Assembly (NCBI GenBank): GCA_002869015.1
Contig: PKTT01000013.1
Span: 1 to 33,854 of the forward strand
DNA from: Deltaproteobacteria bacterium
GTDB lineage: Bacteria > Desulfobacterota > Deferrisomatia > Deferrisomatales > BM512
Direction of reading: 5' to 3'
Length of the DNA stretch: 33,854 nt
Shown piece after piece: positions 24,045-27,081 of this stretch. The stretch's first letter is position 1. Each line of letters begins with the position of its first letter. The notes below the pieces were generated by a model. That model worked only from the letters and a program-made list of their open reading frames with translations, was not told where the DNA came from and made no database searches. Position numbers and translations under genes: made by a program.

Positions 24045-24079
24045 TCACTCGTTTTTCTGCACCTCTATATGGAATGGTT

Positions 24080-25471
24080 ATGATACGAATCGCGCTTCTT
24101 GCACTGCTCGCCCTCTCATTGATCACCCTCCCAGGCAGGTTCTCCTTCGCCGACCTCAGGGAGGATGCTGCCGCCAGAGCAGAGAGGGTAGCGGGGATGT
24201 TAACGGATGACTCCCCTACGGTGAGGAGAGACGGCGCTAAAAAGGTTGAGCGGGATATTGAAAATTATCTCCGCGATTTTTCCACCGACCCCGAAGCGCC
24301 CATATATCTTGAAGAGCTCTTCAAGGCTCTCTCTCCGCTAACAGAAGCTGAAAAATCAACCATCCGCTTGCGCACCTCACGTATTCTTGAAGATTTTACA
24401 ACGGCGATTATTGAGCTCGGGCTGGTTGAGAACTCTACGCAGCTGTTGCAGAGGATCTATACCTATGCACCTGATGAGGAGATTAAAAACTTAATCGGAG
24501 AGGTCCTTGATGAAAGAGGGGCCAAAAAGCCTAAAGAGGCTCCAAAGCAGCTTGCGTCCAAAGAACCTGCCAATGCTAAAGATATAAAGTCTAAGAAAGA
24601 GACCGTGGCAACCAAAGCTACTCAGCCGATGAAAGCAACCGCCGAAGAGGAAAAGCTCGATATAGGCCGCGTAAGCGAAGAGAAAGTTTTAGAAGTAGCG
24701 TCTGTAGCCGAGGGGGAAAACTTATCTGCTCAGACTCCAAAAGAGGTTACCAGCAAGATAATTGAACCACGAAAACCAAGCGAAGAACCACCCGTAAAGG
24801 TAGTTTCGGTTACACCTAAGCCGAAGCCCGAGACTCAAGACAGCGATGCCGTGAAAACGGTTTCGTTAAATGATATTGGATTAGTAGAGGAGGAGACAAT
24901 CGAGCCTACGCGGGTTGTAATTAAAACAACGGGCGCAGCAAATACTCGGCCAACCACAACTAGAACCGTCTCAGTCAAGACAATTTCGTTAAAAGATCTT
25001 TCCAAAACAGAGAAGAATGAGATTCAACCCCCTTCGACCACCAAAGCTCCCACTGCTACCACCACTTTGGCAGGTGACCGCGTCATCTTAAAGATGGTTG
25101 ATGAAAAGTTTGACCGACAAAATCAAGATGACACGCTCTCGGCTCTATCACTCTCCTTTGAGCTGGCGGAGAAGATCAAAGCCTCTGACTTTAGCCCTGA
25201 TGTGGAGCTAAGAAAGTACACTGCATCAATTCGCGCTCATGTGGTAGCGCTACTGAATAACAAAAGCACTGTAATATCAGCGAAGGCGGCTGAGGTGGCA
25301 GGAGCTATCCATGATGAAAACTCCATACCAATTTTGGCGGACCTCCTCGATAGCCCCTCTACCCTAGTGAGGGAGAAAGCGCACGCCGCCTTAAAAGAGA
25401 TCTCCGGGCAAGCATTTCCTCCATCAAGCAGCAGATGGAGAGAATATTTTAAGGAGGAGGTTGGGAAATAA
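24080..25471 (+). CDS. Secreted HEAT-repeat protein with a low-complexity linker
   Basis: This is a 463-residue protein of unknown function. It has a signal peptide (hydrophobic 3-18, ending near GRFSFA), a helical N-terminal domain (about 25-150), a long Lys/Glu/Pro/Thr-rich linker (about 150-335) and a C-terminal helical domain with HEAT-like units (AAEVAGAIHDENSIPILADL, then STLVREKAHAALKEISG). The tail SSRWREYFKEE echoes the first HEAT protein. The linker holds related pieces VKTVSLNDIG and VKTISLKDLS, 41 residues apart. The start is uncertain: the ATG at 24080 has only GGA before it, and 24074 is possible. It is convergent with the small HTH gene, three bases apart. Confidence 0.7.
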   Translation: MIRIALLALLALSLITLPGRFSFADLREDAAARAERVAGMLTDDSPTVRRDGAKKVERDIENYLRDFSTDPEAPIYLEELFKALSPLTEAEKSTIRLRTSRILEDFTTAIIELGLVENSTQLLQRIYTYAPDEEIKNLIGEVLDERGAKKPKEAPKQLASKEPANAKDIKSKKETVATKATQPMKATAEEEKLDIGRVSEEKVLEVASVAEGENLSAQTPKEVTSKIIEPRKPSEEPPVKVVSVTPKPKPETQDSDAVKTVSLNDIGLVEEETIEPTRVVIKTTGAANTRPTTTRTVSVKTISLKDLSKTEKNEIQPPSTTKAPTATTTLAGDRVILKMVDEKFDRQNQDDTLSALSLSFELAEKIKASDFSPDVELRKYTASIRAHVVALLNNKSTVISAKAAEVAGAIHDENSIPILADLLDSPSTLVREKAHAALKEISGQAFPPSSSRWREYFKEEVGK

Positions 25472-26132: not shown

Positions 26133-26417
26133 TTATTTGCGGCCTTCTCCAAAAGCTGCGGACACCCTCTCACTTCCGAAGGTATCGACTAGGCTCTTCA
26201 CCAAGCGCCTTGAGCAATTCGTCCACTCCCCATCAAGCAACACATCCCAGAGGAACCCCCTGCAATCGAGGAGCGCCGCTACCAGCTCCGCCGGCTCGCT
26301 GACAGCCCCACCCTTGCTGTTTGCTACAAGAGGGCAACCAATTGCCTCCCTGCACTCTTTGTAATTTGGAATAGTTAAACGAGGCTTTTCACACGCGGAA
26401 TTGGTCAAAGGCTTCAC
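26133..26417 (-). CDS. Small hypothetical protein, first gene of the phage-like cassette
   Basis: This is a frame of up to 94 residues with no recognised family. It has four cysteines, including CREAIGCPL, and a helical C-terminal half (ELVAALLDCRGFLWDVLLDG, then RLVKSLVDTFGSERVSAAFG). The GTG at 26417 has GAGGG directly against it with no spacing, so a TTG at 26408, seven bases after GAGGGG, may be the true start. It lies 30 bases upstream of the XRE-like gene and about 110 bases downstream of a strong minus-strand promoter. Its position suggests an early or control gene, but this is inference. Confidence 0.5.
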   Translation of the reverse strand: MKPLTNSACEKPRLTIPNYKECREAIGCPLVANSKGGAVSEPAELVAALLDCRGFLWDVLLDGEWTNCSRRLVKSLVDTFGSERVSAAFGEGRK

Positions 26418-26478
26418 CCCTCTGCAGACCGCCTAACCCCCCCGGGCGGCAAAGCCTGCTGACTAGTTTGTGAAATAT

Positions 26479-26507
26479 TTGATTTTTTACGTATTTCCTT
26501 GTATACT
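26479..26507 (+). promoter_or_regulatory. Predicted promoter of the CI-like repressor gene
   Basis: TTGATT (26479-26484), a 17-base spacer and TATACT (26502-26507) predict a rightward start near 26514 and an 80-base leader to the repressor ATG. It faces the leftward promoter at 26534-26562, so each transcript crosses the other start region. Confidence 0.55.
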
Positions 26508-26513
26508 GTTTCT

Positions 26514-26548
26514 ACGAATTTCTATTTTTTAGAATTATATATATTCGT
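26514..26548. promoter_or_regulatory. Operator-like inverted repeats between the two facing promoters
   Basis: ACGAAT (26514-26519) and ATTCGT (26543-26548) form a perfect outer inverted repeat. Inside it TTCTA (26520-26524) and TAGAA (26530-26534) form a second one. The element spans both predicted start points and the leftward -10 box, which is where a repressor would act on both directions. Binding is not shown by sequence alone. Confidence 0.45.
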
Positions 26549-26562
26549 CTTTAACGTACCAA
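26534..26562 (-). promoter_or_regulatory. Predicted leftward promoter of the three small genes
   Basis: On the minus strand TTGGTA (26562-26557), a 17-base spacer and a perfect TATAAT (26539-26534) predict a start near 26527. It drives the unit 26417 to 25475 and faces the repressor promoter, with about 14 bases of overlap between the two starts. Confidence 0.6.
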
Positions 26563-26592
26563 GAAAATAACACCTCTGCCGAGGAGAAAATT

Positions 26593-27081
26593 ATGAAGAG
26601 AGTTCTTGGGGCGAAGGAGGTCTACTCAAACATTCAAAAGTTGAAAGGTTTTACAACAAAGAGGGAGTTGGCAGAGTTTTTTTGTGTAAGCCCTTCGGCC
26701 ATAAGCGATTGGGTAACTAGAAACAACGACACTATTCCAGCAAAAAAAATCGCGGAAGCCAGTCACCGCCACAACTTGAGATGGCAGTGGCTTAGCTATG
26801 GGGAGTTACCCCCTTACGAGGAAAAAATTGTCGAGAAGAGGACTGGTATCGAGCTGGACCCCGTCGAAGTTGAGTTGCTCGGAAGGATAAAGAAATCTCC
26901 CGTCTTTCGGCAAGCTGTAGAGCGAATGATGGGGCTTGATGAGCATTGCATAAAGCTGGTGGCATCAGTTGCCGAGTCCATGGGTGAAAAAGCACGTGAA
27001 GCCGAAGTGAAAAACCCTGGACCTGACTCGCGGGTGGTAAGAGAGAAAAGGAGCATAACCCCTTTCGGCAACCACTGGTAA
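26593..27081 (+). CDS. Phage CI-type repressor-like transcriptional regulator
   Basis: The 162-residue protein has an N-terminal helix-turn-helix of the bacteriophage CI repressor type: TTKRELAEFFCVSPSAISDW at about 21-40, then IPAKKIAEASHRHNLRWQWL, which is the usual continuation of the family (a helix ending in the W-L-x-x-G-E motif, here WLSYGELPPY). It lacks the S24 peptidase domain of self-cleaving repressors; the C-terminal half is helical and charged. GAGGAG precedes the ATG by six bases. It is divergent from the three small genes, with facing promoters between, which is the layout of a phage lysogeny switch. It could also be a domesticated regulator. Confidence 0.8.
   Translation: MKRVLGAKEVYSNIQKLKGFTTKRELAEFFCVSPSAISDWVTRNNDTIPAKKIAEASHRHNLRWQWLSYGELPPYEEKIVEKRTGIELDPVEVELLGRIKKSPVFRQAVERMMGLDEHCIKLVASVAESMGEKAREAEVKNPGPDSRVVREKRSITPFGNHW

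Follow-up and report, generated by a model that had tools for sequence, protein, structure and literature searches.

In the 33.8-kb stretch of DNA analysed here (the window, from genome G000), a short intergenic gap separates a gene for a CI-like repressor, read rightward, from three small genes read leftward, P2, P3 and P4. The repressor gene (26593–27081, forward strand) encodes 162 amino acids with a PF07022 HTH domain (E=2.8e-7; 31.2 bits against a cut-off of 22), and its homologue in G002 likewise lies above the PF07022 cut-off. The protein has no Peptidase_S24 autocleavage domain. Its best solved relative is 2FJR, the CI of phage 186; the match is weak (E=0.013) and covers only residues 9–77, the DNA-binding domain. 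The best phage matches include the CIs of the 186-like phages PSP3 and SEN1 and are similarly weak (E of 0.01 and above) and confined to the HTH. Past residue 77, a search for a 186-like C-terminal oligomerisation domain returned no sequence match, and the structure model is of low confidence (pLDDT 42).

On the reverse strand, P2 (26133–26408) encodes a small protein with four invariant cysteines, a CRGFLWDVLLDGEW motif and no known family; family searches found neither an HTH nor a phage family in it. The P2 reading frame extends to 26417, and translation most likely begins at TTG 26408 rather than GTG 26417, which makes the gap slightly longer (26409–26592). An RNA hairpin hiding the P2 start looked conserved by eye and was rejected (folding not unusual, z -1.4; start-site pairing above that of shuffles only in G001 and G002). 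P3 (25704–26102, reverse strand, 132 amino acids) combines a conserved N-terminal HYW...NCC region with a Cro/C1-like HTH (HTH_31, below cut-off), and its structure is predicted with low confidence (pLDDT 43). P4 (25475–25720, reverse strand, 81 amino acids), whose start overlaps the end of P3, is an HTH protein weakly like the Mor/C phage activators (phrog_836, matched by four of the five family members, best E 0.0014); against the Mor family PF08765 it scores 13.5 bits, below the cut-off of 24.9. P2, P3 and P4 have no above-threshold family match among them, and the searches gave no credible phage, viral or plasmid homologue of P3 and no credible phage or viral homologue of P4.

All four are real coding genes with conserved homologues, as the original prediction had supposed. 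Between G000 and G001, members of one genus, the first and second codon positions of CI, P3 and P4 are 86–96% identical, whereas third positions of the flanking genes are 39–56% identical; such conservation of first and second positions without that of third positions indicates purifying selection.

The locus was followed through five draft MAGs, all those available for one GTDB family, from three genera (g1, G000 and G001; g2, G002 and G004; g3, G003). In all five, a CI homologue is present and the cassette, with P4, P3 and P2 read leftward and CI rightward, occupies the same place beside a HEAT-repeat protein gene (24074–25471, forward strand), a constant neighbour that provides context and is no part of the putative switch. 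The HEAT-repeat protein itself has a long low-complexity middle and diverges fast (39% third-position identity to G001), always adjoining the cassette. Genes of ordinary bacterial types flank the locus (acetate-CoA ligase, methyltransferase, thioesterase, HEAT, TPR and a glutamate-synthase-like oxidoreductase). CI is followed in G002 and G003 by a gene for an HTH-S24 repressor of the self-cleaving type (L010:4876-5547, L011:6440-7159); a TPR lipoprotein-like gene takes its place in the window and G001. Elsewhere in the order there is one remote CI homologue (27%), in G007 (L013:5000-8500). It adjoins integrase-, AlpA- and primase-like frames, a reading of the frames that suggests a P4-like satellite.

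A P3 profile matched the five family genomes but no other in a sample of 395 genomes from the larger phylum. Scans of IMG/VR with CI, P3 and P4 found no relative, nor did searches of phage records with P3 and P4. Portal and baseplate-J families, detected in control genomes, were absent from the five family genomes, and the scanned neighbours included no integrase or phage structural gene. The window holds no tRNA and no Rfam match, and a defence-system library gave weak partial matches only. The view of the locus as a phage-type arrangement without the phage is supported in substance: the gap is conserved, the repressor is of the PF07022 CI type with 186 CI as its closest solved relative, the searches turned up no phage genes, and the same locus recurs across the family.

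Predicted facing promoters in a conserved gap

Two predicted sigma-70-type promoters face each other in the gap. PR (26479–26507, forward strand; TTGATT at 26479–26484, a 17-nt spacer and TATACT at 26502–26507) reads into the CI-like gene from a predicted start near 26514, and PL (26534–26562, reverse strand; TTGGTA at 26562–26557, a 17-nt spacer and TATAAT at 26539–26534) reads into P2-P3-P4 from a predicted start near 26527. The starts, predicted with an E. coli-style sigma-70 weight matrix, lie 13 bp apart and give a 14-nt transcript overlap, and the two -10 elements are separated by 26 bp; the hexamers and spacers proposed earlier are reproduced exactly, and the starts and overlap agree. 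Each promoter is the top-scoring site of its strand in the gap on the matrix (13.1 for PR, 13.2 for PL), with p-values against dinucleotide shuffles of 0.027 and 0.013, respectively. They are also the sole convergent pair in the window when both members must exceed the threshold and start within 62 bp of each other. A pair of this kind appeared in none of 40 window shuffles and in one of 2000 gap shuffles, which retain the A+T richness of the gap.

Support from relatives differs between the two promoters. The PR -10 element is TATACT in four of the five family genomes and TATACG in the fifth. PL in G001 is identical to that in the window, its counterpart in G003 is TTGGAA-17-TATATA, and in G000, G001 and G003 it is the top reverse-strand promoter at the same position (p about 0.01 in G000 and G001), a matrix scan of these three gaps having found no better leftward promoter. 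PL is therefore convincing as a predicted promoter in three genomes of the five, while it scores poorly in both g2 genomes. In G003 and G004 only about 36 nt separate the PR -35 element from the P2 start; this is too short for a back-to-back leftward promoter, and leftward transcripts must therefore start within PR or past it. On promoter prediction, then, the face-to-face layout is supported in genera g1 and g3, and the leftward promoter is weak in g2.

G000 and G001 share 91% identity across the gap, compared with 39–56% at third codon positions in the genes on either side and 50–73% for other gaps. Its conservation ends at the P2 coding start and continues into the first CI codons. Across the five genomes the features that stand out in the alignment are the PR -10 element, three copies of a 15-bp box, and the block CAAGAAAATAACAC (26560–26573). 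This block, which shows few changes across the five, spans roughly -33 to -46 relative to PL and falls within the CI mRNA leader; its position makes it a possible activator site, for example of Mor type.

A repeated box over both promoters

The 15-bp box, TWCGY-YTTTN-RCGWA, is a conserved candidate operator that occurs three times in the gap, twice over PR and once over PL. On the forward strand, O1 (26479–26493, TTGAT-TTTTT-ACGTA) covers the PR -35 element, O2 (26504–26518, TACTG-TTTCT-ACGAA) covers the PR -10 element and start, and O3 (26544–26558, TTCGT-CTTTA-ACGTA) falls in the spacer between the PL -35 and -10 elements. O1 and O2 are spaced by 25 bp in all five genomes, and O2 and O3 by 39–42 bp. 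O3 comes nearest to the consensus in every genome except G002, where O2 scores slightly higher.

The boxes were ranked with matrix models that left out the genome under test, against a background of 12,000–68,000 positions. They took ranks 1–3 in G002, G003 and G004 and ranks 1, 2 and 16 in the window, where O3 is first and O2, the weakest box in genus g1, is sixteenth. When the tested site position was left out as well, the boxes ranked 1–13, except O2 in genus g1 (197 in G000, 23 in the other genome); O2 ranked 1–4 in G002–G004. Recovery by models built without the tested site position indicates that the three boxes repeat a single motif and are more than orthologous positions, with ranks that are somewhat optimistic because the box was spotted by eye in the same five gaps before testing.

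The original prediction had pointed instead to two nested inverted repeats across the starts. Both repeats are present in the window, the outer one with arms at 26514–26525 and 26537–26548 (10 of 12 positions complementary) and the inner one as TTCTA/TAGAA. Neither is conserved across the four relatives, in which the outer repeat pairs at 8/12, 5/11, 6/12 and 3/10 positions and the inner at 4, 2, 1 and 5 of 5. The repeats, weak, short and poorly kept in relatives, were rejected as operators.

Genome-wide, counts of the box equalled those of a reversed-pattern control. With no such enrichment, no regulon is visible, and the circuit appears to be self-acting or to reach its targets through P3 or P4. 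Inspection of ten listed box sites placed most of them inside long open frames; the one clear intergenic pair, which G000 and G001 both conserve, turned out to be another palindrome, CTTTTTTA-TACG-TTAAAAAAG, upstream of the gene for an XRE-cupin regulator. On the other side of this palindrome (CTTTTTTATACGTTAAAAAAG; L076:1285-1440, L077) a glyceraldehyde-3-phosphate-dehydrogenase-like gene is read divergently, and the site is probably the operator of the XRE-cupin regulator itself. A shorter motif, TTTNNACGTATTT, was set aside because its 45 matches barely differ from the control's 44, with clustering in the gap only.

Comparison with known switches

The locus had been likened to the switches of P2- and 186-type phages, and part of the likeness holds: the repressor is of the PF07022, 186 CI-type HTH class, and the facing promoters separate two operons of opposite direction, one for the repressor and one for small regulators, albeit with a weak PL in G002 and G004. 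The differences are several. In P2-like phages the facing promoters are 40–60 bp apart, the repressor has its sites over the lytic promoter and Apl/Cox has sites of its own (PMC7498355), and in 186 pR interferes with pL (PMC7498355, PMC7708051); here the predicted starts are only 13 bp apart. Repressor and Apl/Cox sites are distinct in 186 and P2, the Apl/Cox sites being direct repeats at 10–11 bp, whereas here one type of box, spaced at 25 and 39–42 bp, lies over both promoters. The first gene of the early operon is P2, which has no HTH match, in place of a gene of Apl/Cox type, and no integrase or other phage gene was found among the neighbours scanned. By the features tested, the cassette falls outside the P2/186 switch family.

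Iterated operators common to both promoters, together with an opposing operon that encodes a Cro/C1-like HTH protein (P3), recall instead the OR region and CI/Cro pair of lambda. Unlike in lambda, the promoters are convergent rather than back-to-back, the repressor lacks an S24 domain, and three divergent small proteins stand in place of Cro alone. From the spacing of the starts and the lambda-like boxes over both promoters, the cassette would work as a hybrid of P2/186 and lambda.

Other switches resemble it in single respects. The CI/MOR switch of TP901-1 is likewise a sub-kilobase switch with two opposing regulators; it differs in being phage-borne and is described as divergently transcribing (PMC7250872). 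DicA/dicBF is a repressor circuit that resides in the host and belongs to no active phage (PMC10448788), and convergent promoters form a switch in ScbA-ScbR (PMC3134472). The present cassette lies in no recognisable prophage, a difference from cryptic-prophage circuits of the DicA/dicBF type. In both DicA/dicBF and ScbA-ScbR, the repressor families and cargo differ from those of the cassette.

Candidate mechanism and competing readings

We consider it likely, at moderate confidence, that the cassette is a compact chromosomal switch that has been inherited vertically, traces back to a temperate phage or satellite and uses common operators with convergent promoters. PR would drive the CI-like repressor and PL would drive P2-P3-P4. 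One DNA-binding protein would recognise TWCGY-YTTTN-RCGWA, most likely CI, although P3 also carries an HTH. CI bound at O3 would shut off PL, and at O1 and O2 it would limit its own promoter. Transcriptional interference may add to this repression, the firing of PR or PL hindering the other, given that facing starts only about 13 bp apart leave no room for full occupancy by two polymerases. P3 and/or P4 may act for the leftward state, P3 in a Cro-like and P4 in a Mor-like manner, and P4 possibly activates PL through the conserved block at 26560–26573.

Simpler control would account for part of the same evidence. Genes for HTH regulators with divergent targets are very common, and CI (or P3) could repress both promoters through the boxes as plain autoregulation, homeostatic or derepressed by stress, with neither bistability nor meaningful interference. 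Such a co-repressor would equally need boxes over both promoters, and neither a regulon nor a memory element was seen. We regard this reading as rather unlikely, however, since simple divergent control does not usually come with convergent promoters in place of back-to-back ones, and the presence of P3 and P4, putative DNA-binding proteins on the opposing operon, fits a two-sided circuit better. It is quite improbable that PL matches a promoter by chance, the gap being rich in A+T, with PR alone real and P2-P4 driven from elsewhere: the poor PL consensus in G002 and G004 would agree with this, but its recurrence at one place as the top reverse promoter of G000, G001 and G003, with no better leftward candidate in those gaps, argues against it. 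Least probable is that a prophage or P4-like satellite has decayed, leaving behind an immunity region that does little for the host, as the phage-type CI family and the satellite-like surroundings of the G007 homologue might suggest, because a decaying remnant would not keep the cassette intact and under coding constraint in five genomes of three genera, with a gap more conserved than its genes.

The chromosomal switch that we favour could go further than this. Most studied face-to-face repressor switches are phage-borne. Tentatively, the cassette may be a phage-free, domesticated bistable switch that joins P2-like facing promoters to lambda-like common operators, with initiation complexes made mutually exclusive by their close spacing, and that has held one chromosomal place through the family; its output arm would be three family-specific regulators, of which the one with four invariant cysteines is possibly a redox or metal sensor. 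P2, P3 and P4 are in any case proteins without an annotated family, and promoters converging so closely would offer a natural design for the study of transcriptional interference. A switch owned by the host and fixed in one place, its control DNA better conserved than its genes, would illustrate how a cell takes over a phage decision circuit.
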